Assembly: GCA_016871175.1 (NCBI GenBank)
Contig: VFZL01000025.1
Location: 1-57,393 of the forward strand
Length of the DNA stretch: 57,393 nucleotides
Reading direction: 5' to 3'
DNA from: Acidimicrobiia bacterium
GTDB taxonomy: Bacteria; Acidobacteriota; Vicinamibacteria; Vicinamibacterales; CAVVIG01
Shown: piece after piece, positions 26,894 to 41,800 of the stretch
Layout of the letters: each line of letters begins with the position of its first letter
Position numbering within the stretch: position 1 is the stretch's first letter
Program-made: the position numbers and the translations under genes
The notes under the pieces: model-generated
Told to the model about the DNA's origin: nothing
Database searches by the model: none
Seen by the model: the letters and a program-made list of their open reading frames with translations, nothing else

Positions 26894-28303
26894 ATGGCGA
26901 GGAAGAGCGCCACTGTCGTACTGGTCGGCCGCCCGAACGTCGGGAAATCGACTCTTTTCAACCGCATGACCGGCTCGCGACGCGCGATCGTGACGCCCGT
27001 GCCCGGAACGACTCGGGATACGCTCTACCGGCCCGTCACGTGGCGCGGCCGGTCGTTCGAGCTGACGGACACCGGTGGCTTGTACGGCGCAAGTGAGGAC
27101 CCTCTACACGAACTCGTCGTCCGGCAGGGGCAGCGGACCATTGCCGCAGCAGACGCATTCGTCATGGTCGTTGACGGACGAGAGGGCCTGGTTCCCGGGG
27201 ATATCTCCATCGCAAAGGATCTGCGGAGCACGGGGAAGCCGGTCGTAGTCGCGGCGAACAAAACGGACGACAAGCGGGCGCGCGGCACTGCGCTCGAGTT
27301 CTATCAGCTCGGGTTCGAACCAATCGTCGAGATCTCTGCCGAGCACGGAAACGGTATCGGCGACCTCCTCGACGAGATTCTCGCCCGGCTCCCGGCGCGC
27401 ACTTCCACCGCGCCCCGCGGAGCGGACTCCGAGGCTGTCGAGCCCGACGGGAATGACGCGCCTCGCGCCGGACGAGACGACGGTCGAACAGCCGTGAAGC
27501 TCGAGACCGCAGTGGCGATCGTCGGTCGCCCGAATGTCGGGAAGTCCTCGCTCTTGAACAAGCTCCTGCACGAGGAGCGCGTCCTCGTCAGCGACCTTCC
27601 GGGCACCACGCGAGATCCGATTGACGCCGTCGTGGTGTGGCACCGCCGCCGCTTTCGCATCGTGGATACCGCAGGCATGCGACGGCCCGGGCGTGTACGC
27701 GGTGGTGGGCAGGTCGAGCTGGTCAGCGTTGCCGGTGCGAGGAAATCGATCGTCGAGGCAGACGTCGTCGCGCTCGTCATTGATGCCGAAGAAGGCGCCA
27801 CGGATCAGGACGCCGCCATCGCTGGCGAGGCCGATCGCGCGGGACGCGGTGTCGTCATCGTTGCCAACAAGTGGGACCTCGTCAAAAGCGACGATCCCCT
27901 GTTCGCTAAGCGGTTCGACGAAGAAGTGCGGCGAAAGATGAAGTTCCTCGACTACGCGCTCATCCTGCACATCTCCGCGCTAACCGGCGAGCGTGCGCCG
28001 AAGGTGCTCGACGCGATTGATAAGATCGCCGAGACGCGGCGTAAACGCATTCCGACACCCACGCTCAATCGTTTCCTGGCGGACGTCACGGCGGCGAACC
28101 CGCCCACTAGTCCCGGTCGGAGGCACGTCCGCATTCTGTACGCCGCCCAAGTTGGCGTGGCGCCCCCCGCCTTCGTGTTCTTCACGAACGTGGCGACGAC
28201 CTTCCATTTCTCATACGAGCGGTTCTTGGTGAACCGGCTGCGCGAGCAGTTCGGGTTCCTCGGAACGCCCATCCGCGTCCAGGTTCGACGACGGGCGACG
28301 TAA
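26894..28303 (+). CDS. der: Ribosome biogenesis GTPase Der (EngA)
   Basis: The product has 469 residues with two tandem GTPase domains, the signature of Der. G1 motifs are GRPNVGKSTLFNR near residue 12 and GRPNVGKSSLLNK near 210. G3 motifs are DTGG and DTAG, and G4 motifs are NKTD and NKWD. A C-terminal KH-like domain runs from about residue 375, with RRHVRILYAAQVGVAPPAFV. Der assists 50S subunit assembly. The inter-domain linker is long and acidic. It is divergent from hup. Confidence 0.96.
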   Translation: MARKSATVVLVGRPNVGKSTLFNRMTGSRRAIVTPVPGTTRDTLYRPVTWRGRSFELTDTGGLYGASEDPLHELVVRQGQRTIAAADAFVMVVDGREGLVPGDISIAKDLRSTGKPVVVAANKTDDKRARGTALEFYQLGFEPIVEISAEHGNGIGDLLDEILARLPARTSTAPRGADSEAVEPDGNDAPRAGRDDGRTAVKLETAVAIVGRPNVGKSSLLNKLLHEERVLVSDLPGTTRDPIDAVVVWHRRRFRIVDTAGMRRPGRVRGGGQVELVSVAGARKSIVEADVVALVIDAEEGATDQDAAIAGEADRAGRGVVIVANKWDLVKSDDPLFAKRFDEEVRRKMKFLDYALILHISALTGERAPKVLDAIDKIAETRRKRIPTPTLNRFLADVTAANPPTSPGRRHVRILYAAQVGVAPPAFVFFTNVATTFHFSYERFLVNRLREQFGFLGTPIRVQVRRRAT

Positions 28304-28415
28304 GCTCAGCGGGCCGCTCGCATCGGACCTGGTGCGGAAGGTTTCGGCCGTCGTCTGACCCTGCAACTCGCTGTCAGCGGACACCTTAGCAGCCTGGAGC
28401 TGAATGGCCCTCGTG

Positions 28416-28421
28416 ATATAC
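28416..28421 (+). promoter_or_regulatory. -10 element (TATACT) upstream of the MerR-type regulator
   Basis: TATACT lies 12 bases before the ATG at 28434, implying a very short leader. It falls inside the longer open frame from 28404 and therefore argues for the 28434 start. Confidence 0.4.
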
Positions 28422-28433
28422 TCGGCGCTACGG

Positions 28434-28988
28434 ATGCCGGACGGTTTCGTCACCCCAGTCGAAATCCCGAATCGCGCACTTTTCAAGGCGACGGAGGTTT
28501 GTGACCTCCTCAAGGTGCAGCCATACGTGCTCCGGACCTGGGAAGCCGAGTTTCCAGAGCTGGGTTTCGCCAAGACCGCCGGGGGACCGCGAGTCTACCG
28601 GCGGACCGACGTCGAGCAGGTCGTCAAGATCAAGCACTTGCTGTTGGTCGAGGGACTGACGTTAGCCGGCGCACGTCGGAAGCTGCAGGGTGAGTCGATG
28701 CCGGTAGCGGCTGACGCCCCGGTCATCGATAAGCTCATGGGGCGGCATGCCCGCGAGCGACTGACGGAGATCAAGCGCGGACTGCAATCAATCCTCGAGC
28801 TCCTCGCTGGTCGTGGGCAAGCCGGCGACTTCGGCTTGACGGCACCGAACACACATCTCGCCATGCGAGCCTCGGTGGCGTCCCGTGCGAGGCCCGCGCC
28901 CCCGGCCGCGGCGAAGAAATCGAAAAGGCCTGAGCCGAAAGCCAGGGAGAAGCCCAGCCCGATGGCAGCGGCTCGGCGAAAGCGATAG
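28434..28988 (+). CDS. MerR-family transcriptional regulator
   Basis: The ATG at 28434 is preferred over 28404 because a TATACT -10 box lies between them. The 184 residues begin with a MerR-type winged helix: LFKATEVCDLLKVQPYVLRT, then WEAEFPELGFAKTAGGPRVY and RRTDVEQVVKIKHLLLVEG. A short coiled segment follows, and then an alanine/lysine/proline-rich basic tail (from about residue 145) without a recognisable effector domain. No metal-binding cysteines are seen, so it is not a CueR/ZntR-type sensor. This compact form is common next to translation genes and resembles regulators sometimes annotated as heat-shock MerR types. The target is unknown. Confidence 0.85.
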   Translation: MPDGFVTPVEIPNRALFKATEVCDLLKVQPYVLRTWEAEFPELGFAKTAGGPRVYRRTDVEQVVKIKHLLLVEGLTLAGARRKLQGESMPVAADAPVIDKLMGRHARERLTEIKRGLQSILELLAGRGQAGDFGLTAPNTHLAMRASVASRARPAPPAAAKKSKRPEPKAREKPSPMAAARRKR

Positions 28989-28998
28989 CGCCGCTTTT
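28967..28998 (+). terminator. Candidate intrinsic terminator after the MerR-type gene
   Basis: AGCGGC at 28967-28972 can pair with GCCGCT at 28990-28995, followed by TTT. The stem straddles the stop codon. Six base pairs and a short T run make it weak. Confidence 0.35.
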
Positions 28999-29065
28999 CT
29001 GCTAGGCTTAGAACGCTTCTGCGCGCGGCCCCCACGTGCGCGGTCATATGGGATCGTCTCGTGTT

Positions 29066-29142
<77 letters not shown>

Positions 29143-29198
29143 ATTTCGGCACCGGGGGGCACATCAGGGACACACAGCCCACGGAAAAGAGTCCGACG

Positions 29199-30017
29199 AT
29201 GGGACGCACCGGCCCCTTCCTCGCCGTCTTGATGCTGGCTTTGACACGAATGCCTAGCGCTCAGCAGTCCGCAGGCGTCCTCAAGGTCACCTCCTTCCCT
29301 TCATCCGCTCAGGTCTTCGTCGACGGAGTCGCAACGGGCAAAGTGACCCCAATGAGCATCGCGCTCTCGCTGGGAGAACACACCGTCACGGTCCAGATCG
29401 CCGGGGGCGGCTGAAGCCCAGACACGAGGACCGTTACGATTGCCTCCGGCAACAACGATTTGAGCATCACCCTGTTGCCAACGCTGACGACGGGGCCTCA
29501 AGGCCCGCCCGGGCCCGCCGGCCCGCAGGGCAAACCAGGAGTAAATGGCACCGGTGCGTTACAACTCGTGGACGCATCTGGAAGTCGCCTTGGCTGGCGC
29601 CTCCGGACTGGACGGGCCATGACCGTGTACCTCTACATGCACTCCCTCGACCACGCGAGTGAGCGCCAGACGCTCCTGCGCCTCGAAGCGATGCGCCTCT
29701 TGCGCGACGAGCTCTCAGCGTACACGGCTGTCAAGGTGTGCGCGACGCCACAGACCGCCGACCTCGAAGTCGAAGTGGTCAATGTGGTCGTCAACGACGA
29801 CAGCGTAGACACCGGCAGCGAACACGTGCAGCGGATCCTCGTCGTGCGCATGACACGTAACGGCGAGCGCCTGGACTTCGTGTGCTCCGACGGCCGCGGT
29901 GAGCTGACCGCCGAACGGCAGGCGGCGCGGCGCATTCGAAATTGGGTCGCCGGCGGAGACTTTTTCTCGATGGCTCGCACCGCGCGCACCAGCCACGCCG
30001 TGCGCGCAATTGCGTGA
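29199..30017 (+). pseudogene. PEGA-domain plus collagen-like protein split by an in-frame TGA
   Basis: The ATG at 29199 gives a signal peptide (to about PSAQQ), then a PEGA domain: GVLKVTSFPSSAQVFVDGVA and SLGEHTVTVQIAGGG. A TGA at 29412-29414 interrupts it. The same frame resumes at once with SPDTRTVTIASGNNDLSITL, the expected end of a PEGA domain where tryptophan is common at the stop position (TGG to TGA). Gly-X-Y collagen-like triplets follow (GPQGPPGPAGPQGKPGVNG). The last 140 residues, with VKVCATPQTADLEVEVVNVV, are of unknown fold. If translated only to the TGA it would be a 71-residue secreted fragment. PEGA proteins are exported and thought to bind envelope polymers. The junction after the collagen part, near RTGRAMTVYLY, may itself be a fusion. 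Confidence 0.75.
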
Positions 30018-30023
30018 CTGCAC

Positions 30024-30245
30024 ATGGAACAACACCCGAAGATCACCGTTGCCTGGGCCGTTGCCTCGCTCGAGCGCGCCATGAGCGCGCTGGGAGACTC
30101 GTCCGACGAGGAGCGCACACGCCGGCAGTTTCACCAGCTCCTGCTCGCTCTCGAGCGTGACGGCCACGTGTTTCTCGAAGCGCGTCACTTACAGCCCGCC
30201 AGGCGTGGCGCGAAGATTCTGCCCATGCGACGCGCGCGAGTCTGA
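30024..30245 (+). CDS. 73-residue protein of unknown function
   Basis: ATG seven bases after the end of the PEGA/collagen frame. The sequence is helical and charged (VAWAVASLERAMSALGDSSD) with no signal or membrane segment. I do not recognise a family. Codon use resembles neighbouring genes. It may be a downstream operon member or an ORF by chance. Confidence 0.4.
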   Translation: MEQHPKITVAWAVASLERAMSALGDSSDEERTRRQFHQLLLALERDGHVFLEARHLQPARRGAKILPMRRARV

Positions 30246-30502
30246 GCGCCTGAAGGACTCGGGGCAACCATGGGTCCTCACGTAACGCACCTCATCTCCC
30301 GAAGTCCACTCGCCGCCCTCGTGACATCGTGGTCGGTTCCACGCAGCCCTTGGCAACATCATCGCTCCGACGAGCTCATCAGCTCCCGAGAACCGGGCCC
30401 CCTTGAGGGTGTTCTGGGGCCTGGTCGGCGCCGATAGACATCGTGTCGAGCCAGGTGGCTGATGGCCGTCGTGGTGGACTGGTTCTGCGAGGCATGTGAA
30501 CC

Positions 30503-32017
30503 GTGACTGAGGGGGCATTGGCACGGCACCAGTGGGCGCGCGACAAGACGGATCGCGCCCCGGACCAAACCGACCAGCCCCGACGCAACCCTGCTGGCAC
30601 CGGCAACGAGCGGCCACTTGTCCTCATCGCCGATGACGAGGCTCCGGTCCTGCGGGTGTTGGAGCGGATCGCCACCCGAGTCGGCTTCGATGTGGTCACG
30701 TGCTCGGCAGGGCAGGACGCGCTGCGCGCCATGCGCGAGCGAACACCGGACCTGGCGCTCGTCGACCTCCGCATGCCGGACTTGAGCGGCATGGACGTGC
30801 TGCGGCAGTTCCGCGGCGAGGTCTCCGCGTGTCCCGTCGTGATCATCACGGCGTACGGCGCCATCGAGTCTGCCGTCGAAGCGATGAAGCTGGGCGCGCG
30901 GGAGTACCTCACCAAACCGTTCGACTTCGCTCGACTTCGCGCGCTACTCGAGGACGTCCGCGACGAACGCCAGCCGAGCGGCTCGAGACGCCCCGAGGTC
31001 GGGGAGGCGCCAGACCTGTGCGCGCTCCTCGGGGCGACGCCGGTGGTGCAGGAGGTGTCCGCGCTCGTGCGCTCACTGGCATCGTCCGCGCGGGTGGTTC
31101 TGGTCAGCGGCGAGCGCGGGAGCGGGCAAGAGCTCGTCGCACGCACGTTTCATCAGTGCGGTCCCCGGGCGAACAAACCGTTTGTCACGATCAGCTGCTC
31201 GGCCCTCGTGGATTCGCTCTTCGAACGCAAGCTCTTCGGACACGAGAGGGGCGCCTTCCTGGGCGCCGAAGGGTCGGCACCGGGCCTCTTCGAGGTAGCC
31301 CACGGCGGCACCGTCTTCTTCGATGACGTCGGCGACTTGCCGCTCGCCGTCCAGGGCATGCTCGTCCAGACGCTCGAGACCGGAACGATTCAACGTGTGG
31401 GCGCGGAGCGGCCCCGCATGGTCGATGTCACCATCGTCGCGGCGACGCAGCGTGACCTGAGGGCCGACGTGGCCGCTGGACGTTTTCGCGCGGATCTCTA
31501 CTACCGGTTGAGCGTAGTCGGAATCGGGCTACCTCCGCTCCGGGAGCGGCGCGACGATATTCCGTTGCTGGCGATCGGCTGGCTCCGCGAATGCGCATTG
31601 ACGCTCGGCACGCTGCTCGTGGGCTTCACTGATGACGCGATGACCACACTCCGCGAGGCGCCGTGGGACGGCAACTTGCAGGAACTGCGCACGTGTGTCG
31701 AGCGCGCATGCGCTGTCGCAGCGGGTCCACTCGTCACGGCAGACGACGTGGCGGTGGCGTTTCGCGGCGAGCCCCGCGTGACCACGCCTCGTGGGGGCGG
31801 GTTGCACGTGGTCCGTTCCGGCGGCACGCCTGCGCCGCTCCAGGACGTCGAAAAAGAGCACATCTTGACGGTGCTGCGAGATGTCCGCGGCAATCGCATG
31901 GCGGCTGCGAAGGTCCTCGGGATCAGCCGACGGGCCCTGTACCGACGGCTCGCGCGACATCGAATCTCCGGCGGGACCCTTCACGCCGTACCGCCCCGTG
32001 GGGACGATCACCGCTAG
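30503..32017 (+). CDS. NtrC-like response regulator with degenerate sigma-54 activator ATPase
   Basis: The product has 504 residues from GTG. The order is an unstructured N-terminal 36 residues, a receiver domain with intact acidic pocket (LIADDEAPVLRVL), phospho-site (LVDLRMPD), Thr and Lys (LTKPF), then an AAA+ domain and a Fis-type HTH (GNRMAAAKVLGISRRALYRR). Several AAA+ residues are off consensus. Walker A reads GERGSGQELVA where GESGTGKELVA is normal, so the nucleotide-binding lysine is Gln. GAFTGA reads GAFLGA. Walker B ends DD instead of DE. The arginine-finger region (FRADLYYRL) is retained. I infer weak or no ATP hydrolysis and no normal sigma-54 contact. It may act as a DNA-binding regulator without remodelling activity. 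Confidence 0.88.
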   Translation: MTEGALARHQWARDKTDRAPDQTDQPRRNPAGTGNERPLVLIADDEAPVLRVLERIATRVGFDVVTCSAGQDALRAMRERTPDLALVDLRMPDLSGMDVLRQFRGEVSACPVVIITAYGAIESAVEAMKLGAREYLTKPFDFARLRALLEDVRDERQPSGSRRPEVGEAPDLCALLGATPVVQEVSALVRSLASSARVVLVSGERGSGQELVARTFHQCGPRANKPFVTISCSALVDSLFERKLFGHERGAFLGAEGSAPGLFEVAHGGTVFFDDVGDLPLAVQGMLVQTLETGTIQRVGAERPRMVDVTIVAATQRDLRADVAAGRFRADLYYRLSVVGIGLPPLRERRDDIPLLAIGWLRECALTLGTLLVGFTDDAMTTLREAPWDGNLQELRTCVERACAVAAGPLVTADDVAVAFRGEPRVTTPRGGGLHVVRSGGTPAPLQDVEKEHILTVLRDVRGNRMAAAKVLGISRRALYRRLARHRISGGTLHAVPPRGDDHR

Positions 32018-32289
32018 TGCCCTCTACGACTGCCGAACCTATTTCGCATCCGCCCGGCCCCCCCATGCGGAGACGGTGCACGCCGATGCACATGGGATCG
32101 CGGATCCACTCCCGATGATGAGAGATGACGAGTGCGGTTCATATCTCCGTGGCTTGGATTCAAGTTCTGATCGCGATCGCCGATTGGGCACAGTAGGGAT
32201 GCGTCCGCCAAGACAGCGCTCGCGATAGGAGCCCCTCGATGTTGCCGCACACGTCTTTCTTCAGCTTGATACGCGAGTACGCTGCATAA

Positions 32290-32727
32290 ATGCACCGGCA
32301 GGCTCCCGACCGCAAGCTGCGGGTCCTCGTGGTCGACGTTGACACGCTCACCCGACGCTTCGTGGACCGGGTGTTGCGCGAAGCCGGCTTCGAGACTGCG
32401 GTCGCCGAGGGCGAGCCCGAGGCGTTGGCGGTGGCGGAGTCTTTTCAGCCTCTCGATCTGGTCCTGACCGATCTGATGATGCCTGGCATGAATGGCGACG
32501 AGATCGCCCGACGACTTCGGACCATCGAGCCCGGTCTGAAGGTGCTGTACTTCACTGGTTACAGCGACTAACTGTTCCGCGAACGCCAGACCCTGTGGGA
32601 AGACGAGGCGTACCTCGAAAAGCCGGTGAGTGCGACGGGACTTCTTGAGGCCGTGTCGCTGCTGTCCTACGGACGGCTGGCGGCACCGGGGCACCCGTCG
32701 GGCACGGAGGTCGCGCAGGCCGCTTGA
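32290..32727 (+). pseudogene. Receiver-domain protein interrupted by TAA
   Basis: The ATG at 32290 opens a response-regulator receiver (RKLRVLVVDVDTLTRRFVDR, phospho-site VLTDLMMPGMNGDEI, then KVLYFTGYSD). A TAA at 32569-32571 follows. The same frame continues with LFRERQTLWEDEAYLEKPVS, which supplies the conserved Lys-Pro loop and final helix, and ends at TGA 32725-32727. One base change from a sense codon explains the break. The first acidic pocket reads VVDVD rather than the usual DD, a further sign of relaxed constraint. A truncated product would lack the switch lysine. Confidence 0.8.
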
Positions 32728-32772
32728 GCGGCCACCAGCAGGTCGACGAGGCTAATTTCAATAAAGCTGCGG

Positions 32773-32778
32773 TACAAT
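32773..32778 (+). promoter_or_regulatory. -10 element (TACAAT) seven bases before the bacilliredoxin ATG
   Basis: TACAAT ends seven bases before ATG 32786. Transcription would begin at the A of the start codon, implying a leaderless message. No Shine-Dalgarno sequence is present. Confidence 0.5.
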
Positions 32779-32785
32779 ACGCGGC

Positions 32786-33220
32786 ATGTACCCAGAACAT
32801 TTCGTGGCGCCCATGCGCGCCGAGCTGACGCGATTTGGCGTCGAGGAACTGCGTTCCGCCGCACAAGTGGACGCCGCGGTCACCAGCACACGTGGCACGT
32901 TGATGATCGTCGTGAATTCGGTCTGTGGTTGCGCCGCCGGGAAGGCTCGACCCGGCATTGCCATGGCGCTGCAGCACTCCACGCGGCCGGATCGCGTGGC
33001 AACGGTATTCGCCGGCGCCGACATCGAGGCCACCAGTCGCGCCCGCGAGTACTTCACCGGCTACCGCCCCTCGTCGCCTTCAGTCGCGATTCTCCGTGAC
33101 GGTCAACTCGTGTACATGCTCGAGCGCTACAACATCGAGAACCGCACCGCCGAACAGATTGCCATTGAGCTCACGGCCGCCTTCGACAGGCACTGTGCGG
33201 GCGCCGCTGCTACTCATTGA
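32786..33220 (+). CDS. BrxA/BrxB-family bacilliredoxin
   Basis: The product has 144 residues, the family length. The active-site CxC motif is in VVNSVCGCAAGKARPGIAMA near residues 50-60; MYPEHFVAPMRAEL at the start and EYFTGYRPSSPSVAILRDG are conserved. Bacilliredoxins remove bacillithiol from protein thiols after oxidative stress in Firmicutes; in other phyla the low-molecular-weight thiol partner is not always known. It is monocistronic and convergent with moaA. Confidence 0.92.
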   Translation: MYPEHFVAPMRAELTRFGVEELRSAAQVDAAVTSTRGTLMIVVNSVCGCAAGKARPGIAMALQHSTRPDRVATVFAGADIEATSRAREYFTGYRPSSPSVAILRDGQLVYMLERYNIENRTAEQIAIELTAAFDRHCAGAAATH

Positions 33221-33271
33221 AGAAGGCTGATTACGGCGAAGGGGCGCTGCTGGACGGCTGGCTGGCGAGCA

Positions 33272-34291
33272 TCACCCTCCCCGCGTGTGCATCTCGAGAT
33301 GCGGATCCTGGCGTAGCGAGCGGAGTGGCACGAAGGCGCGACGGTCGCCAAGCGCCAGCCTGACTTCAGCCCCTCGGTCCGTGCGCTCGGTCCACGCCTT
33401 CGTCATGATGCGGGCGAGTTCCTCACGCGAGGCCCCTCTGCGCAACGCGCCCCGCAAGTCAAGGCCTTGCGTCGCGTAGAGGCACAAGTACCACATGCCA
33501 TCTGCGGTCAGCCGACTGCGGTCGCAATCCCGGCAGAACGGCTCGGTCGTGGAGGAGATGATGCCGAACACCGTGCCGTCGGGCAGGCGATACCGATCGG
33601 CCGGCGCAGAGCTGGCCGCGATGACAGGCTCCACGCCTCCGTAGTGGGCAGCCAGGCGCTCGATCATCGTGCGACGAGTCAGCACCCGCTCGGGCGCCCA
33701 GCGTGTTGCGCCGCCCACGTCCATGTACTCGATGAAGCGAACCTCGGCGCTCACGGTCCGGCCGTATTCGATGAGATCGACCAATTCATCGTCATTCACA
33801 CCGCGGATCATCACCGTGTCGATCTTCAACCCACCAAACACCCGCGTGGCAGCCGCGATGCCCGCCTGGACGCGCGCCAGCTCGTTGTAGCGGGCGATCG
33901 CCGCAAAACGATCCGATCGCAGCGTGTCCAGACTCACCGTCACGCGTTGAACTCCGGCTGCTTTCAGCGTGTCCGCCTGATCGGCCAGGAGGATGCCGTT
34001 GGTGGTCATGGCGAGATCGGTGACGCCAGGCTTGTCCACGATCATCCGGATGAGTGTGGGTAGATCCCGACGCAGGAGCGGTTCGCCCCCTGTCACTCGG
34101 ATGCGGTCAACCCCCAGGCTTAGAAAGACGTCGACGAGAAGGGAGATCTCCTCGAAGTGGAGCACGTCCTCACGAGGCAGCCAGACGTAGTCCTCCTCCG
34201 GCATGCAGTACTCGCAGCGGAGATTGCAGCGGTCCGTGACCGACAGGCGGAGGTTCTTGAGGGGGCGCCCGAAAGCGTCCAGCAGGGACAT
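33272..34291 (-). CDS. moaA: GTP 3',8-cyclase MoaA (radical SAM)
   Basis: The ATG at 34291 ([20 protein letters not shown]) is the standard start. The 339 residues have the radical-SAM CxxxCxxC motif in [12 protein letters not shown]. The C-terminal second cluster ligands are in [16 protein letters not shown] and LCLYATQG, and the protein ends in Gly-Gly, which is needed for activity in this family. It converts GTP to 3',8-cyclo-7,8-dihydro-GTP, the first molybdenum-cofactor step. No other moa/moe genes are here. Confidence 0.95.
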
Positions 34292-34297
34292 GGGTGC

Positions 34298-34303
34298 ATT
34301 ATG
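34298..34303 (-). promoter_or_regulatory. -10 element (CATAAT) six bases before the moaA ATG
   Basis: CATAAT on the - strand is six bases from ATG 34291, placing the predicted transcription start at the start codon. No Shine-Dalgarno sequence is seen. Confidence 0.45.
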
Positions 34304-34536
34304 ACAGGCTCTGCCGCGATCCAAACACGCTCAGGAATCAATCGGCCGCATGCCCGTGGGGCACGGTCGACCCCCGTCATCGATGGCGAGTGATGCCCCT
34401 CCCACGCTGACTGGAGTCGGGCTGGCTGATGACTACTTCACTTACACTCCTGGCTCTTGGCAAGAACCTCCAGGCGGTTATACAGTCGCCTTGGCCTGAC
34501 TCCCCCAGTAGTCGAGCCGTTCACGGAGGTTGAATC

Positions 34537-35316
34537 ATGCGATCGCAGATTCTCGGGATCGCGCTTGCGGCGGTGATAGCCCCGCACGTGGGCTACGCAC
34601 AGGTCTACCTGCTTCCCGAAAGCAGTCCACCGCTGGTGACCGCCGCCCGCGCGCCTTGGCAGCTCAGAGGCGACGCCATCTTCTACAAAGGCGATTTCTA
34701 CTACCCGACTGGCCCGACGGAATTCTTCGATGGTCGGATCATGATCCGCAGCGGCACGCACGACGGCGTCCCACTGTACGAGAACACGACCCTGGTGCCC
34801 AACGACATCGTCTACGTGCCCGTGGCCGGTGGGCTGATGCGGCCGTACGAACGACGGCGTGAAGGGTGGTTCGCTGGGACCACGGGATCGCGGATGCCGT
34901 CGTTCGTCGTGGAACCCAGGCCGACCGATCTCGGCCAAATCGAGCGGACGTGGACCGAACGCGAACGCGCGATCGCTCGCATGGCTGTCGGCCGCGCGGG
35001 GTGGGAATGGCCGGAGCCAGTCGCCCCACGCGAGGTGCCTCCCCTGGCTACCACGCCTGGTCGCCGCGTCACGGCTCCGCCAAGTGGCGTCATCCGGTCG
35101 GTTCCTCGGCGCGACACGACTAACGTTGGCGCATACTTCAGCTTCGAGGGCGCGCGATACGTCGCGTCGGGACGTGCGGTACGGCGGGACGTCGATCGGT
35201 TCACTCGCATCGGCGGCATCCACGACTTGGCCGTCTTCCGCGAGATCAAGGGCGACCCGAATACGATCTACATCGAGTCGGTCCCAGGGGGTCTGCTGAC
35301 GCCCTACAGCCGCTAG
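34537..35316 (+). CDS. Secreted protein with two related 60-residue repeats, function unknown
   Basis: The ATG is preceded by GGAGG at a normal distance. A signal peptide covers residues 1-21 (ALAAVIAPHVGYAQ). Two related segments follow. One is near residues 47-108, ending DIVYVPVAGGLMRPYER. The other is near residues 198-259, ending NTIYIESVPGGLLTPYSR. Both contain a GxYY/GARY strand and an IYxxxVPGGLxxPY motif. A proline/arginine-rich linker separates them. I know no function. The repeats suggest a small beta domain that may bind ligand or wall polymer in the periplasm. Confidence 0.75.
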   Translation: MRSQILGIALAAVIAPHVGYAQVYLLPESSPPLVTAARAPWQLRGDAIFYKGDFYYPTGPTEFFDGRIMIRSGTHDGVPLYENTTLVPNDIVYVPVAGGLMRPYERRREGWFAGTTGSRMPSFVVEPRPTDLGQIERTWTERERAIARMAVGRAGWEWPEPVAPREVPPLATTPGRRVTAPPSGVIRSVPRRDTTNVGAYFSFEGARYVASGRAVRRDVDRFTRIGGIHDLAVFREIKGDPNTIYIESVPGGLLTPYSR

Positions 35317-35334
35317 CCGAGCCCGGTTGCTCTG

Positions 35335-36546
35335 ATGCAAGGCTCACCGTTGACCCGAGCCGTCTGGCTACTGGGCTGGGTGAGCCTCGCCACCGATGCC
35401 TCGAGCGAAGCTATCTATCCACTCCTCCCGTTCTTCTTGACCTCCATGCTCGGCGCGGGCGCCATGTCGCTCGGCGTGGTCGAGGGCGTGGCCGAGGCGG
35501 TCAACAGCCTCCTGAAAATCGTCGCCGGGCGCTGGTCGGATCGGGCGGTCAGACGTCGCCCACTCGTGCTCATCGGGTATCTGATCTCGTCCGCGGTGCG
35601 ACCGCTGATGAGTGTGGCTCAATCGGCGTCGCACGTTTTCGCGGTCCGCTTCATCGATCGCGTGGGCAAGGGCATTCGAAGCGCACCGAGAGACGCGCTG
35701 CTCGCCGCGCTCGCCACGTCGGCCACGCGCGGTCGTGTCTTCGGCTTCCACCGCGGCATGGACCACGCCGGCGCCATTCTCGGCCCAATCTTGGCCTCGC
35801 TCTTCCTGTTCTGGCAGCCGGGCCAGTATCGCACGTTGTTTGCGCTGGCGGTCGTTCCAGGCGCGATCGCGGTGATGTTGATCTTCCTGGTTCGTGAGCC
35901 CCCGGTGGTGCCTAACCGTCCTGCGATCACGGCGTCGACGGGGACCGGCGTCGTCGCTTCGACGATGCCGGGTGACCTTCGCACGTTTTTCCTCGTCCTG
36001 GCGCTTTTCACGGTCGGCAACTCCACCGACGCCTTTCTGCTCCTCACGCTCACCGACGCCGCCGGGAGTGTCGACATGGTCCCTCTCATGTGGGCCGGGT
36101 TGCACGTCGTCAAGGCCAGCATATCGTTCGTGGCACCCCGATGGTCGGATCGCGTCGGCCGTCGTCGCGTCATCGGCCTCGGATGGGTGGTGTTCGCGCT
36201 GGTCTACATTGGCTTCGCGGTGAGCAGCGCCCTATGGGCGCTGCTCGCCTGGTTCATGATGTACGGGGTGTACTTCGGTTGCGCGGAGGGCACGGAGAAA
36301 GCCCTCGTCGCAGATCTGACCCCTCTGTCCACCCGTGGGTGGGCTTTCGGCATCTACACGGCCGTCCAGGGCATCGGCATGTTGATCGCCAGCCTACTGT
36401 TCGGGCTCCTTTGGACGCTCTACGGCCGGCAGGTCGCCTTCGCCGCAGGCGCGACCCTCGCGCTCCTCGCCACCGGCGCGCTATTCGCACTCGTGTCGGA
36501 ACCCGAACGCGCCTCCGACACGAGCCTCGACCCTGCGAACACGTGA
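35335..36546 (+). CDS. Major facilitator superfamily transporter
   Basis: The product has 403 residues with about 12 TM helices. The cytosolic loop between TM2 and TM3 has GRWSDRAVRRRPLVLIGYLI, the MFS motif A. A second motif-A-like loop is in RWSDRVGRRRVIGLG between TM8 and TM9, the usual pseudo-twofold repeat. RFIDRVGKGIRSAPRDALLA resembles drug- and sugar-efflux subfamilies. The substrate is unknown. It lies 18 bases after the secreted repeat protein on the same strand. Confidence 0.88.
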   Translation: MQGSPLTRAVWLLGWVSLATDASSEAIYPLLPFFLTSMLGAGAMSLGVVEGVAEAVNSLLKIVAGRWSDRAVRRRPLVLIGYLISSAVRPLMSVAQSASHVFAVRFIDRVGKGIRSAPRDALLAALATSATRGRVFGFHRGMDHAGAILGPILASLFLFWQPGQYRTLFALAVVPGAIAVMLIFLVREPPVVPNRPAITASTGTGVVASTMPGDLRTFFLVLALFTVGNSTDAFLLLTLTDAAGSVDMVPLMWAGLHVVKASISFVAPRWSDRVGRRRVIGLGWVVFALVYIGFAVSSALWALLAWFMMYGVYFGCAEGTEKALVADLTPLSTRGWAFGIYTAVQGIGMLIASLLFGLLWTLYGRQVAFAAGATLALLATGALFALVSEPERASDTSLDPANT

Positions 36547-36594
36547 ACCGCTCAACCCGCGACCTCGTACCAAGAGCGGCACGTGAACCGTGCC

Positions 36595-36600
36595 TATAAT
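36595..36600 (+). promoter_or_regulatory. -10 element (TATAAT) next to the surE start
   Basis: Perfect TATAAT ends nine bases before ATG 36610, with a GGAG in between. Either the message has a leader of only a few bases or the GGAG is used from a longer transcript. No clear -35 box is seen. Confidence 0.45.
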
Positions 36601-36609
36601 TGGAGTTTC

Positions 36610-37365
36610 ATGCTGATCCTTGTGACAAACGACGATGGATATCGATCGGACGGTCTCACGACGCTGGCCGACGCCGCGCGGTCGCTTGGCGAGGTGATCA
36701 TTGTCGCGCCTGTGGACGAGGCGAGCGCCATCGGCCACGCCTTGACACTCAAGCGGCCGCTTCGCCTCGAGTTCATTCACGAGGGCCTGTACGCCGTCGA
36801 TGGCACACCGACCGATTGCGTGAACATCGCGGTCACGCAGGTGTTCAAGCGGCTGCCGGACCTCGTTCTGTCGGGCATCAACAAGGGCTATAACCTCGGA
36901 GACGACGTGACGTACTCAGGCACGGTCGCGGGCGCGCTGGAAGGGGCGCTGCTCGGGATCCCAAGCCTGGCGGTGTCGCTCCGCATGACGCGCGGGGCGT
37001 ACGATTTCGGCTACGCCGCGCAGGCGGCGGTGAACGTCGCCGGCGCGATGGTGCGCCACCCGCTGCCGCGGCGGACCTTCCTGAACCTCAACGTTCCAAA
37101 GGGCCAACCCAAGGGGTTCCGGGTGACCGTACAGGCGTCCCGGAATCACATTACGTCAGTGGCCGAGCGTCACGATCCTAAGGGGCGGCCATACTTCTGG
37201 ATCGAAGAAGGGCAGGACAGTTGGCATCCGCACGACCGGTCCGACTATGAGGCGGTTCGAGCCGGATTTGTCTCGGTCACCCCTCTGCAGCCGGACCTAA
37301 CGGCACACGACGCGTTGGCGGCCGTCGAGGCGCTTCCGCTTTGGGACGAAGCTGGGGTAAGATGA
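36610..37365 (+). CDS. surE: 5'/3'-nucleotidase SurE
   Basis: The start at 36610 gives MLILVTNDDGYRSDGLTTLA, the canonical N-terminus with the metal-binding NDDG. The 251 residues also have VDEASAIGHALTL, AVDGTPTDCVNIA and VLSGINKGYNLGDDVTYSGT, all SurE active-site segments. The enzyme removes phosphate from nucleoside monophosphates and is linked to stress survival. It runs into the tRNA-Pro(CGG) gene 55 bases later. Confidence 0.95.
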   Translation: MLILVTNDDGYRSDGLTTLADAARSLGEVIIVAPVDEASAIGHALTLKRPLRLEFIHEGLYAVDGTPTDCVNIAVTQVFKRLPDLVLSGINKGYNLGDDVTYSGTVAGALEGALLGIPSLAVSLRMTRGAYDFGYAAQAAVNVAGAMVRHPLPRRTFLNLNVPKGQPKGFRVTVQASRNHITSVAERHDPKGRPYFWIEEGQDSWHPHDRSDYEAVRAGFVSVTPLQPDLTAHDALAAVEALPLWDEAGVR

Positions 37366-37420
37366 TCGCGCGTCGTGCGGCATCCTGAGCCGCACGGGAA
37401 CACTCCCTCCTTACGCCTGT

Positions 37421-37497
37421 CGGGGCGTGGCTCAGCCTGGTAGAGCACTCGGTTCGGGACCGAGGGGTCGGTGGTTCGAATCCACTCGCCCCGACCA
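37421..37497 (+). tRNA. tRNA-Pro (anticodon CGG)
   Basis: The 77-base cloverleaf has acceptor arms CGGGGCG/CGCCCCG and anticodon stem CTCGG/CCGAG around loop TTCGGGA, giving anticodon CGG. The T loop is TTCGAAT, and CCA is encoded. It reads CCG proline codons, abundant in a high-GC genome. Confidence 0.96.
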
Positions 37498-37825
37498 CTT
37501 TCGCCGGTACGGCTTTGAACCTTTTTTGCGACCGGAATACCTGAGGGACGCTGATTGATCGACCCTCGGCTTCAGGCGAGGGTCGATCAAAGAATCTGAA
37601 CCGCCCAGAGTATGGCGATCGCATGCGACGGCGTGCCGTGATCGAACGGTCACCGCCGTCACACACAGTTCGATTGCAGCAGCGCTGGTGATCAATCGGC
37701 TGAAGCCGGCGATGAGAGGGGGAGAGACGTGACTTTCGCGGAGATGATTTCGCCGCGAGTTGATGCGGAACGGGACGGCCGGCCCTGCCGCCCTGCAGGC
37801 GGTCAAGGACCGGCCCCTCGCGCTA
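37498..37825. other. 328-base intergenic region after tRNA-Pro
   Basis: No convincing gene on either strand. It contains a T6 run at 37522-37527 and a perfect 14-bp inverted repeat at 37555-37590, listed separately. Neither makes a standard intrinsic terminator, because the T run precedes the hairpin. Confidence 0.6.
37555..37590. repeat. Perfect 14-bp inverted repeat with 8-base loop
   Basis: TTGATCGACCCTCG at 37555-37568 is the exact reverse complement of 37577-37590. The loop is GCTTCAGG. No T run follows on either strand, so it is not a classic terminator. The 58-base spacing from the tRNA 3' end is a position where processing signals, an operator or a mobile-element remnant could lie. 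Confidence 0.85.
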
Positions 37826-38299
37826 CTACTTGGTGGCGGGCGGCGGGGCGACGTCGCCCTTTGTCGACCGCTTCTTGAAGCGCCAGCCTTGCGGGGTCTT
37901 CACGAGCTCGTCGGAGTAGGTGGCCGAGGTGACGATCGACGCCGGCTTGGTGGCAAAGTCAACCAGTACGAGGTACACCTGACCGGCGGCACCTGCGGGC
38001 GTCGGCGTGATCATGAGGTTCGTGTTCCAGTGCTTCACGTGGGACCCGAGGCCCTTGTGGAAGCCGTCGGCGAACTTCACGATGGCCTCTTGGCCGACGT
38101 TGTTGTTGAAGACACCGTCGGGCGTGAAGGTCGCCGCATACCCTTGCGAGTCGCCCGAGTCGAGCGTCCAGTTGTACTTGGCGTACAGTTGCTGAATCTC
38201 AACCAGATCCTGCGCGGTTAACTGGCCGCCCTGCGCGAATGCGTTCGTGGCACCGAGCGCCAGCACGACGGCGGCGATTGCCATGGCTTTCCGAATCAT
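37826..38299 (-). CDS. Exported SnoaL/NTF2-like protein
   Basis: The ATG at 38299 has GGAGG at a good distance and gives a signal peptide MIRKAMAIAAVVLALGATNA. The mature part, with DLVEIQQLYAKYNWTLDSGD followed by AATFTPDGVFNN, matches the SnoaL-like/DUF4440-type cone fold often found in small ligand-binding or cyclase-like proteins. There are 157 residues in all. No specific reaction can be assigned. Monocistronic. Confidence 0.8.
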   Translation of the reverse strand: MIRKAMAIAAVVLALGATNAFAQGGQLTAQDLVEIQQLYAKYNWTLDSGDSQGYAATFTPDGVFNNNVGQEAIVKFADGFHKGLGSHVKHWNTNLMITPTPAGAAGQVYLVLVDFATKPASIVTSATYSDELVKTPQGWRFKKRSTKGDVAPPPATK

Positions 38300-38449
38300 C
38301 CTGACCTCCAAAGGGGCTCATCCCTTCACCCCGCGTGACGCGTGATCGTATCAGGACCAGCCCGATTCGCGCCAAAGAAGTGTGCGCAGGCTCATGCCGC
38401 CGTTCGCGACCCACACCGGTGGCGCTCCTTTCCGTGATAGTACAGGGCC

Positions 38450-39142
38450 ATGCCTGACTTGGGCTCGGCGGTGGTCTACTACATCGTGTTCCTCCTGTCG
38501 ACGACGCTCCACGAGGCCGGACATGCATGGGCTGCGCTGTTGGGGGGGGACCTGACCGCGTATCACGGCGGTCAGGTGTCGCTCGACCCACGCCCTCACA
38601 TTCGGCGGGAACCGTTCGGGATGGTCGTGCTCCCCATCCTGAGCGTGCTGGTATCTGGCTGGCCTATGGGGTTTGCCAGCGCGCCATTCGACCGGATCTG
38701 GGCCCTGCACCACCCGAAGCGCGCTGGTTGGATGGCACTGGCCGGCCCGGCCGCCAACCTATCGCTCGTGCTCGTCGCCGGCGGCGGCCTGCACGTCGGC
38801 ATGTTGGTCGGCGGCTTCGACACCCCTGGCTCTGCGGGATTCGATCATCTCGTCGCCGCGCAAGACGGTTGGGGCGGCCCGGCGTTCTTTTTGTCGGTCC
38901 TGTTCTCGATGAACTTGCTGCAGGCCTTCTTCAACCTGCTTCCGCTCCCACCGCTCGACGGAAGCGCGGCGATTCCCGTCCTCTTGAGCGACGGCCCGGC
39001 GCAGCGCTACCAGCGCTTCCTGCTCCAGAACGGCCAGACCTTTGCCATCGTCGGGATGCTCATCGCCTGGCGCGTGTTCGACGTCATCTTCGGGCCGATC
39101 TTCCTGACGGCCATCCGGCTGTTGCACTGGGGACGCTTCTAG
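38450..39142 (+). CDS. Short site-2-type membrane metalloprotease (M50)
   Basis: The product has 230 residues, compact, with five or so TM helices. The zinc motif HEAGHAWAALLGG lies near residue 21 and the second motif LLPLPPLDGSAAIPVL near residue 165. This minimal M50B-like layout resembles FtsH-independent S2P relatives of unknown substrate. Its stop overlaps the convergent YHS gene's stop in the sequence CTAG, so transcripts from the two strands must overlap at their 3' ends. Confidence 0.87.
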   Translation: MPDLGSAVVYYIVFLLSTTLHEAGHAWAALLGGDLTAYHGGQVSLDPRPHIRREPFGMVVLPILSVLVSGWPMGFASAPFDRIWALHHPKRAGWMALAGPAANLSLVLVAGGGLHVGMLVGGFDTPGSAGFDHLVAAQDGWGGPAFFLSVLFSMNLLQAFFNLLPLPPLDGSAAIPVLLSDGPAQRYQRFLLQNGQTFAIVGMLIAWRVFDVIFGPIFLTAIRLLHWGRF

Positions 39143-39294
39143 GGCTTTTCCTGCTTGACGTACGCCTGCGGGTTCGCATCGAACTTCCGCTTGCAGCCAG
39201 GCGCGCAGAAGTAGTACGTCGTGCCGTTGTATTCGCTCGTGCCGGCGTTCTTCTTCTCATCCACTTGCATCTTGCATACGGGATCGATCGCCAT
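39139..39294 (-). CDS. 51-residue YHS-domain protein
   Basis: Start ATG 39294, stop 39139. The protein opens MAIDPVCKMQVDEKKNAG and has TTYYFCAPGCKRKFDANPQ, the full YHS pattern with conserved cysteines (Cys-7, Cys-30, Cys-34) thought to bind Cu+ or similar metals. A free YHS protein beside a P-type ATPase that itself begins with a YHS domain suggests a metallochaperone feeding the pump. It lies 109 bases downstream of the ATPase on the same strand. Confidence 0.88.
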   Translation of the reverse strand: MAIDPVCKMQVDEKKNAGTSEYNGTTYYFCAPGCKRKFDANPQAYVKQEKP

Positions 39295-39403
39295 GAGAGG
39301 CTCCGCCTCTCACCATCCTCTCACGTGTTCAGCGAGGTGAGGCCGGGGAATCGCGGCCGGGCCCAATCTGCACGTCCTCGAGCGCAGGTGCCCGCTAGCC
39401 CCG

Positions 39404-41800
39404 CTAGAGCCGGGCGCGCCGGAGACGCAGCGCATTCCCGATCACCGAGACCGAGCTGAGCGTCATGGCAGCGCTCGCCCAGATCGGGCTGATGAGCACG
39501 CCGGTCCACGGATACAACACACCAGCCGCCACCGGCACGCCGACTGCGTTGTAGACGAAGGCGAGGAAGAGATTCTGTCTGATGTTGCGCATCGTCGCTC
39601 GGCTCAACCGCCGGGCGCGCACCATTCCACGTAGGTCGCCGCGCAGAAGCGTCACTCCCGCGCTCTCGATGGCCACGTCGGTGCCGGTCCCCATTGCGAT
39701 CCCGACATCCGCTTGTGCAAGCGCTGGGGAATCGTTGACGCCGTCCCCGGCCATGGCTACCACTCGTCCTTGCCGTTGGAGATCCTGAATCACGGCGCAC
39801 TTCTGAGCTGGCAACACTTCGGCCACGACGTCATCCACACCAAGGTGCGCGGCCACGGCCCGCGCAGTGGTCAGCGTGTCGCCGGTCACCATGATGACGC
39901 GGAGTCCCTCTGCCTTGAGGGCCTGCACGGCCTCAGGGGCGGTCGTTTTGATCGGATCCGCCACACCCACGAGCGCCGAGAGCCGACCCTCTACGGCCAG
40001 GTACAACACCGTCTGGCCCTCCCGACGGAGCCGTTCGGCGTCCCCCGCGGCGTCGTCCATTCGAATGCCCGAATCGGCCATCATGCCCGCGTTTCCAAGC
40101 CAAGCTCGAGCCCCATTGATGATGCCGCGAATGCCGCGACCGGGTTCGCTCTGGAACTGGTCGGCCCGCGGGATCGCCAGTCCGCGATCACGAGCGGCGG
40201 TAAGGATCGCCACCGCCAAGGGGTGCTCGCTCGGCTGCTCCAGCGCCGCAGCCAGGGTCAGGATGTCGCCTTCCGATCGGCCGTCGAGCGAAACGATCGT
40301 CGCCAGGGCGGGCCGGCCCTCGGTGAGAGTGCCCGTCTTGTCGACGACGACGGTGTCGACGGCTTCGAGCCGCTCCAGCGCCGCCGCATTCTTCACGAGG
40401 ACACCTGTCGTTGCGCCGCGTCCCGTTCCGACCATGATGGCCATCGGTGTCGCCAGACCAAGGGCGCACGGGCACGCGATGATGAGCACCGCGACCGCGC
40501 TGACGAGCGCGAAGCCGAGGCGTGGCTCTGGGCCCCACAGGAGCCAAGCCACAAAGGCCATCACCGCGACCGTGACCACGGCAGGTACGAACACCGCCGA
40601 CAGCCGATCGGCCGTCCGTTGAATCGGTGCGCGAGTCCGCTGCGCCTCCGACACCATGCGGACGATCTGCGCGAGAACGGTGTCAGCGCCGACGCGTTCG
40701 GCGCGAACGAGGAGCGACCCCGTCGTGTTTAGCGTGCCGCCGGTGACGTTCGCACCGGCGTCCTTTTCGACAGGAATCGACTCGCCCGTCACCATGGACT
40801 CATCCACGGCGCTCCGCCCGTCGACAACTACACCGTCCACCGGCACCTGTTCGCCTGGGCGCACGCGGCAGACATCACCCACACGTACCCGATCGAGGGG
40901 CACGTCGTGTTCCTCGCCGTGGCTCACGACCCGAGCGACGGGCGGGGCCAGACCCAGCAGCTGGCGCATGGCCGCCGACGTGCGGGCTCGCGCACGCAGC
41001 TCCAGGACCTGCCCGAGGAGAACCAGAGCGGTGATGACGACAGCGGTATCGAAGTAGGTTTCGACCACGCCATGGGGGCGAAGGTCGGACGGAAACAGCA
41101 GCGGCATGGCCGTGCCGAGAGCGCTGTACCCGAATGCCGCGCCGACGCCAAGCGCAATGAGCGTGAACATGTTCGGACTTCGGTTTACGATCGACGTCCA
41201 GGCTCGAGTGAAGAACGACCAACCGGCCCAGAAGACGACGGGCGCGGACAGCACGAGCCCCATCCAGTTGACCCACGCCAAGTGGCCCATCCCGCCACCG
41301 CGTAGCATGTCCGCCATCGTCACGACGAAGACCGGTGCGCCGCCGACGGCGGCCACCCAGAAGCGGCGCGTCATGTCCTCGAGTTCCGGATTGGGTGCGT
41401 CGACGCGCGTCACCGTCCGCGGCTCGAGTGCCATGCCACAGATGGGGCACGCGCCGGGCTCCGGTCGCACGATCTCTGGATGCATCGGGCACGTGTATTC
41501 GACGCTCGACATCGGGACGGTCGAGAGGTCGGGCTCGAGCGCCATGCCACACCGTGGGCACGCCCCAGGCACGCTCTGCCGGATCTCTGGATCCATCGGA
41601 CAGATGAAGGTGGCGCCCGGCGGCGCATCTGGCGTCGAGGCGGGGCCCTCAGGATGCAGGAACGTCAGTGGCTCGGCTTTGAAGCGATCGAGACAGCTCT
41701 CCGCACAGAAGTAGTAGCGGATGCCCTCATGCTCGTGAGAGCCGACGGCGTCCTCCTCTTCGATGGTCATCCCGCAGACCGGGTCCAGGTGCTCCGCCAT
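39404..41800 (-). CDS. copA: Cu+/Ag+-transporting P1B-type ATPase with N-terminal YHS and two HMBD domains
   Basis: Start ATG 41800 ([20 protein letters not shown]); the frame upstream is spurious. The 798 residues begin with a YHS domain (1-50) and two heavy-metal-binding domains, each with [18 protein letters not shown] and GACPxCGMALEP. Eight TM helices follow, with the Cu+ ion-path motif [11 protein letters not shown] near residue 441, phosphorylation site [11 protein letters not shown] near 485, the SEHPLA motif and [19 protein letters not shown]7 has YN and TM8 [10 protein letters not shown], both typical of Cu+ pumps. It exports Cu+/Ag+ from the cytosol. There is no ferredoxin-like CxxC domain; the YHS-HMBD-HMBD front end replaces it. 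Confidence 0.93.

Follow-up and report, generated by a model that had tools for sequence, protein, structure and literature searches.

The gene on the forward strand at positions 30503–32017 of the window, by which we mean the whole analyzed stretch of 57,393 nucleotides, encodes an NtrC-type response regulator of 504 amino acids with a GTG start and a degenerate AAA+ domain, as identified from the open reading frame list and Pfam. Constraint has been lost mostly in the motor and the lid and kept in the helix-turn-helix (HTH) domain, with the receiver less strictly kept. We favor the reading, at a probability of roughly one half, that the protein is an ATP-independent DNA-binding regulator; early decay of the gene is its close rival.

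Pfam divides the protein into a Response_reg domain (residues 40–149), a Sigma54_activat domain (residues 176–341, E 8e-55), an AAA_lid_14 domain (residues 347–425) and an HTH_8 domain (residues 446–485), which gives the order of receiver, Sigma54_activat AAA+ and Fis HTH found in NtrC-type sigma-54 enhancer-binding proteins with a receiver. The receiver domain (PF00072; positions 30620–30949, forward strand) has an intact pocket, with D44, D45, the phospho-acceptor D88, T116 and K138 all present in the residue table. The AAA+ core (residues 176–346; positions 31028–31540, forward strand) is recognized by PF00158 and by its predicted fold, for which the NtrC1 and ZraR AAA+ domains give TM-scores by target length of up to 0.84–0.86. 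The predicted structure as a whole has a mean pLDDT of 71 and a pTM of 0.47, and its domain arrangement is unreliable. In the Fis-type HTH (PF02954; positions 31838–31957, forward strand), the 21 residues GNRMAAAKVLGISRRALYRRL recur unchanged in 10 of 11 family homologues, and GISRRALYRRL is identical in all 13 sequences, comprising these 11, the same-genus counterpart and the window protein itself. The preliminary description, in which the receiver and the Fis HTH looked intact, is borne out by these residues. The frame runs through 504 codons without interruption, has a base pattern like that of coding DNA and shows none of the breaks of a pseudogene. The same-genus counterpart, which reads MTEGALARH at the aligned position, supports the GTG start.

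Altered residues of the AAA+ domain

We refer to the genome of the window as G000 and to the single further genome of the genus included in the comparison as G001. Matches were found in 49 genomes, and the alignment was restricted to 41 homologues: the G001 counterpart (L105), the 11 closest family homologues, which are 52–56% identical to the window protein in local alignments, and 29 further sequences from the family or order. L153, L159 and L178 (partial) were omitted from the tree and the column counts and kept in the residue table, and L017 to L021 and L023 are absent from the motif table. A search of the genome contigs with the window protein alone returned only remote regulators (24–43% identity).

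Outside the genus, residues 209, 231, 253, 275, 289 and 393 are K, N, T, E, R and R in 40 of 40 homologues, and residue 316 is Asn in 39 of the 40, with one exception. All seven of these key residues are altered in the window protein (coordinates on the forward strand). The Walker A motif (31109–31141) reads GERGSGQELVA, with Gln209 (31127–31129) in place of the Lys that G001 retains, and Ser231 (31193–31195) replaces the glutamate-switch Asn, equivalent to PspF N64 and also retained in G001. The loop 1 motif (31250–31267) is GAFLGA, where Leu253 occupies the position of the Thr (PspF T86) that is Ser in G001. The Walker B acids Asp274-Asp275 (31322–31327, in VFFDDVG) have the second Glu changed to Asp, as in G001. 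Two further substitutions are common to G001. Gln289 (31367–31369) takes the place of an Arg that corresponds to PspF R122, a position assigned by its spacing of 14 residues from the second Walker B acid, and Gln316 (31448–31450) takes that of the sensor I Asn. Gln393 (31679–31681, in GNLQEL) stands for the sensor II Arg that G001 keeps. Positions 316 and 393 are presumably those that bear the sensor I and sensor II names in PspF. The RxDxxxR arginine-finger motif (31487–31507; R329, D331 and R335) is intact, and the residue table shows E210 and D274 to be retained as well.

The preliminary description had picked out the Walker A Gln, GAFLGA and the Walker B DD in this open reading frame, and all three are real according to the translation, the residue table and the 40 canonical homologues out of 40; it had missed the four altered sites Ser231, Gln289, Gln316 and Gln393. 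Because K, T and E occur in 40 of 40 homologues besides the same-genus one, the substitutions reflect neither chance nor misalignment. The Walker A Lys is also kept in all 14 other G000 activators of the motif table with a readable motif, one more being split by a frameshift. Among the features that define sigma-54 enhancer-binding proteins, the finger motif is present, and the GxxGxGK of Walker A (Gln209), the GAFTGA of loop 1 (GAFLGA), the Walker B DE, the switch Asn, the sensor I Asn and the sensor II Arg are missing. The ancestry of the window protein lies with the sigma-54 activators, several of whose hallmarks it no longer has. PspF, NtrC1 and ZraR, which have the same AAA+ fold and are among its listed sequence and fold matches, differ from it in the ATP-site and sigma-54 contact residues that it has lost.

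PspF biochemistry bears on most of these positions. Excerpts of PMC3419264 report no detectable ATPase for PspF K42A and, against 39.5 per min in the wild type, rates of 1.5 for N64Q and 1.26 for R122A, with N64Q, R122A and E108A each cutting ATPase 26-fold or more. Excerpts of PMC4132715 describe E108D as close to wild type in transcription from duplex DNA, with reduced ATPase, and N64S as able to engage polymerase, with T86A failing to engage the closed complex; T86S has a lower affinity for the closed complex (excerpt of PMC7229158). Since E108D transcribes near wild type and the same-genus relative has DD too, the Walker B DD alone is a mild change and weak evidence. Judged by homology, the combined substitutions should leave the window protein dead as a sigma-54 activator, and we infer that it no longer uses ATP or engages sigma-54 closed complexes. 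The proposal that it would take phosphate and bind DNA but could not remodel sigma-54 holoenzyme is well supported at the level of sequence, with seven AAA+ residues changed.

The G001 counterpart is 65% identical to the window protein and carries GERGTGKELVA, GAFSGA, FLDDVAELP and GNVREL. Sites 253, 275, 289 and 316 are altered in both members of the genus, and 209, 231 and 393 only in the window protein. By its residues the relative is an intermediate, with DD, Arg289Gln, the sensor I Gln and GAFSGA on the one hand and the Lys, the Asn and the sensor II Arg kept on the other; it may still work, poorly. Because this sister is intermediate, the loss is stepwise and genus-specific; the Gln and Leu are unshared, and the four sites altered in both indicate that the change began early in the genus. 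A clade with common Gln and Leu, an idea raised in the preliminary description, is ruled out by the Lys and Ser of the G001 counterpart. The opposite case, a lone copy without shared substitutions, does not apply either, as DD, Arg289Gln and the sensor I Gln are common to the two proteins.

Constraint across the domains

The losses are unevenly distributed along the protein. Relative to the distances that separate the 11 family homologues from one another, its distance to them is 3.1 times as large for the receiver, 5.0 times for the AAA+ domain, 6.5 times for the lid and 1.6 times for the HTH. Among the columns that do not vary between these 11, a different residue stands in the window protein at 13 of 51 receiver columns, 40 of 127 AAA+ columns, 19 of 42 lid columns and 2 of 32 HTH columns (HTH versus AAA+, Fisher p 0.003); for the sister the numbers are 10, 37, 20 and 4. 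Both HTH departures of the window protein are common to the sister, and none lies on its own branch. Over all 267 invariant columns, 24 departures belong to the window protein alone and 23 to the sister alone. The tree has a long genus stem (0.93) and tips of similar length (window 0.54, sister 0.46). In the HTH region the tips are unequal, short for the window protein (0.03) and long for the sister (0.58). A constraint lost mainly in the AAA+ domain and lid, with the HTH kept, would also fit a protein that takes phosphate and binds DNA without remodeling.

This pattern bears on the close rival of our favored reading, in which the gene is a relic in early decay: its circuit of kinase, partner and local sigma-54 targets would have fallen apart, and the gene would be drifting with its frame still open. 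We consider this quite possible. The pairwise dN/dS against G001 is 0.22 over both branches, a rough value with dS near 1; it is far from the value near 1 of a pseudogene and is compatible with a short recent drift phase. Among the neighbors, moaA, surE and brxA have dN/dS values of 0.09–0.13 and two unknown genes have 0.20 and 0.41, and the partner regulator, read across its stop, has 0.15. The dN/dS of 0.22, a branch like that of the sister and the conserved HTH speak against a long-dead gene, and uniform drift that struck the ATP-site Lys, Asn and Arg yet spared the conserved HTH columns is unlikely. Against the favored reading, the dN of the window gene is 0.24, versus 0.03–0.10 in five other activator pairs of G000 and G001 (2.4 to 9 times as high).

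Neighborhood, operators and the state of the genome

In G001 the regulator is followed by a PAS-PAS-HisKA-HATPase-receiver kinase, a single-domain regulator and then brxA, moaA and surE. The kinase, which thus lies between regulator and partner in G001, directly follows the regulator in 6 of the 11 family loci (L188–L193). The partner is present in 9 of the 11 and was not found in L194, and moaA is nearby in 9; in a tenth (L188) it sits where the contig ends. Loci L189, L192 and L195 carry a second kinase-like gene after the partner regulator, as does L197 in part. In the window, positions 32018–32289 correspond to the site of the hybrid histidine kinase gene and hold no kinase remnant (the strongest tblastn hit in the stretch has E 0.37). 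Relocation of the kinase elsewhere in G000 was considered and rejected, the best kinase match being 39% identical and not an ortholog. Positions 32290–32727 (forward strand) hold a relic of the partner single-domain response regulator, with an in-frame TAA at 32569–32571 and its second acidic pocket residue changed to Val. Upstream of the regulator, a segment at about 30025–30240 is conserved with G001 and reads as a small protein.

The stopped partner and the missing kinase are what decay would predict. The kinase, however, is also absent from 5 of the 11 family loci (L194, L195, L196, L197 and L144), all with canonical regulators, so it is dispensable or replaced there, and its absence alone is no mark of a dead or wrecked circuit. 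For this reason we weigh decay slightly lower and an ATP-independent regulator slightly higher. XibR is likewise an NtrC-type regulator without a linked sensor (excerpt of PMC5130282), so that orphan status is not decay by itself. A further point against decay is the sister, which has its kinase, and its partner regulator open, and already has an altered AAA+ site. As an observation in its own right, the five loci without a kinase suggest repeated kinase loss or exchange in the family.

The operators and promoters of the family are also gone from the window locus, as decay would have it. A palindrome, TGTGCG-N4-CGCACA, lies upstream of the regulator in 7 of the 11 family loci with at most one mismatch, and in four of these loci the copy is exact. 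Sigma-54-like sites precede a receiver-HD-GYP gene in 8 family loci and an HlyD gene in 8, in a scan that kept GG and GC, allowed at most one mismatch, had no shuffle control and yielded 2 sites over all 57 kb of the window; some of the family sites overlap a predicted gene start, and the HD-GYP gene of L144 is seen only in part. Neither the palindrome nor the HD-GYP and HlyD genes occur beside the window gene (27001–40000) or in 17 kb of G001, and the window contains no relic operator with 0–1 mismatch. Wider scans found no exact palindrome in 1.03 Mb (23%) of G000, with three copies at one mismatch, and none with 0–1 mismatch in 230 kb of G001. The absence of the operator is weak evidence, as the family's use of the palindrome is known at the regulator locus alone. 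No sigma-70-like sites or terminators were found by a scan of 29900–33000, a result that decides nothing on sigma-70 action.

Several features of the family loci deserve separate mention. The palindrome and sigma-54-like promoters lie between the regulator and the divergent receiver-HD-GYP gene at L191:7370–7640, L193:8100–8420 and L195:10280–10560, and a further sigma-54-like site lies before the HlyD gene in family genomes. This arrangement suggests a c-di-GMP phosphodiesterase (the receiver-HD-GYP protein) as a target of the family regulator. An element like GGGCACGGTTCTTGGA is conserved in most of the 11 aligned sequences upstream of the regulators; its likeness to a sigma-54 promoter is imperfect, with TTGG in place of the expected TTGC.

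The condition of G000 as a whole also enters the argument. Of 181 G001 genes in the compared stretches, 63 have a counterpart in the compared G000 stretches or the window, and 12 of these 63 were flagged as frame-broken or stopped in G000. When G000 genes were taken as the starting point, 5 of 78 (from 184) were flagged as broken in G001, two of which look like extra paralogous matches. Among ten activator pairs, seven have a frame lesion or a key-residue loss in G000 versus one in G001 (Fisher p 0.02, post hoc): four of the seven are frame-broken, two have lost a key residue and the seventh is the window gene. Frame lesions alone affect 4 of 10 activator pairs and 8 of 53 others, which is no clear difference (p 0.086). 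The NtrC-type regulators L003 (G000:C23:68261), L014/L022 (G000:C16:50630), L005 (G000:C24:3217) and L010 (G000:C3:1465) look frame-broken or internally stopped, with open counterparts in G001. Of L013 (G000:C38:25279) and L009 (G000:C16:35808), one has GAFAGA and the other a Cys at an arginine-finger position, and both have canonical G001 counterparts. L015 (G000:C6:48585) is sigma-54-activator-like, with Walker A and B kept and an unrecognizable GAFTGA loop. These lesions make decay more likely, or else errors in the assembly. A genome-wide decay of all activators is only suggested by them, given the post hoc key-residue criterion, the possible assembly errors and the frame-lesion p of 0.086.

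PF04552 (rpoN) was detected in 22 of 27 family genomes, G001 among them; G000 has no match, and neither do G013, G015, G022 and G024. In G001, rpoN lies in a block (L201) with tolB-, pal-, ssb-, hprK-, hpf-, lptB-, recJ- and dnaE-like genes, named by eye except for rpoN. A DNA search for this block in G000 gave two short matches, both inside lptB (among the best 40 of 282–315 candidates). RecJ gave no match in G000, in a search without a positive control whose empty result shows nothing, DnaE gave one partial match of 34% and TolB gave partial matches of 23–49% only. As the neighbors of rpoN are missing too, loss of sigma-54 in G000 is rejected as a conclusion on what caused the motor loss, and the missing rpoN and L201 block probably represent an assembly gap (the assembly is 96.8% complete).

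The preliminary description had further suggested that the protein was repurposed as a repressor or sigma-70 regulator. This is no more than a possibility, because the partner has a stop codon, no exact operator occurs in 23% of the genome and several other activators look broken.

Related regulators and significance

The favored reading of an ATP-independent regulator has a precedent in VpsR of Vibrio cholerae, which is likewise a response regulator of the NtrC class without GAFTGA, and which regulates sigma-70 promoters and needs no ATP (excerpt of PMC10274813). The VpsR structure 7v2b matches the window protein by sequence (E 4e-33) and by fold. The two are not close (23% in the fold match), and the window protein has kept its loop length, with point substitutions instead. 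NtrC of Rhodobacter capsulatus and of Caulobacter also act at sigma-70 promoters without GAFTGA, which they lost through loop deletions, as opposed to substitution in the window protein (excerpts of PMC10274813 and, for Caulobacter, PMC12421884). The R. capsulatus protein depends on ATP binding and the Caulobacter one on its Walker A and B residues (excerpt of PMC10274813), unlike the window protein, in which the Walker A Lys itself is gone. The window protein resembles such sigma-70-acting regulators, in that it has no intact GAFTGA, a state reached by point changes and not by deletion. The 11 family homologues share its receiver and HTH and have a canonical AAA+ domain. TyrR and HupR are further comparison regulators. 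Our literature search found no case of the same combination of substitutions, which is not proof of absence.

In the mechanism that we propose, an NtrC-type sigma-54 activator would have had its AAA+ motor switched off stepwise, by point substitutions within one genus, with the DNA-binding domain and, less strictly, the receiver staying under selection. The remaining protein would bind DNA under the control of its receiver or constitutively, and would work without ATP, as VpsR is reported to do, either as a repressor or by assisting sigma-70 polymerase. With no adjoining kinase, it would be phosphorylated by another kinase or be active unphosphorylated.

Two other readings fare far worse than decay. 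It is very improbable that the protein serves in trans as an ATP-dead subunit, forming mixed rings with another activator and either lending arginine fingers or poisoning its partner. The loss of cis ATP-site residues with RxDxxxR kept would suit such a role, and PspF R162 and R168 variants complement Walker B variants in mixed rings; R122, however, is also a trans residue in PspF and is lost in the window protein (excerpts of PMC3419264). No candidate partner gene was seen beside the window gene. Mixed rings of different activators are rare. Also very improbable is that the protein still works as a sigma-54 activator despite its substitutions, a reading for which the kept arginine fingers, E210 and D274, the function left in PspF E108D, N64S and the only weakened T86S, and the Caulobacter NtrC variants without GAFTGA that reportedly promote some sigma-54-dependent expression (excerpt of PMC12421884) can be cited, against the lack of detectable ATPase in PspF K42A, the joint change of the Lys, the sensor II Arg, R122 and the loop 1 Thr, and the sigma-54 promoter matches in the window, which are not above chance (6 with at most two mismatches versus 8.9 expected).

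NtrC-type regulators that have departed from sigma-54 are already known, and the compared NtrC cases lost the loop by deletion (excerpts of PMC10274813 and PMC12421884). With somewhat less than an even chance, we suggest that this genus has been caught in the course of converting a sigma-54 activator, through nothing but point substitutions, into a transcription factor that needs no ATP, the motor being canonical in the family, half-disabled with a kinase in G001 and fully disabled without a kinase in the window. If the gene is decaying instead, the locus matters little. As a graded series of 11 canonical family homologues, one intermediate and one disabled protein, in which the losses can be ordered, it could reveal which of sigma-54 contact and ATP use is lost earlier, and what purpose an AAA+ domain still serves after its use of ATP has ended.
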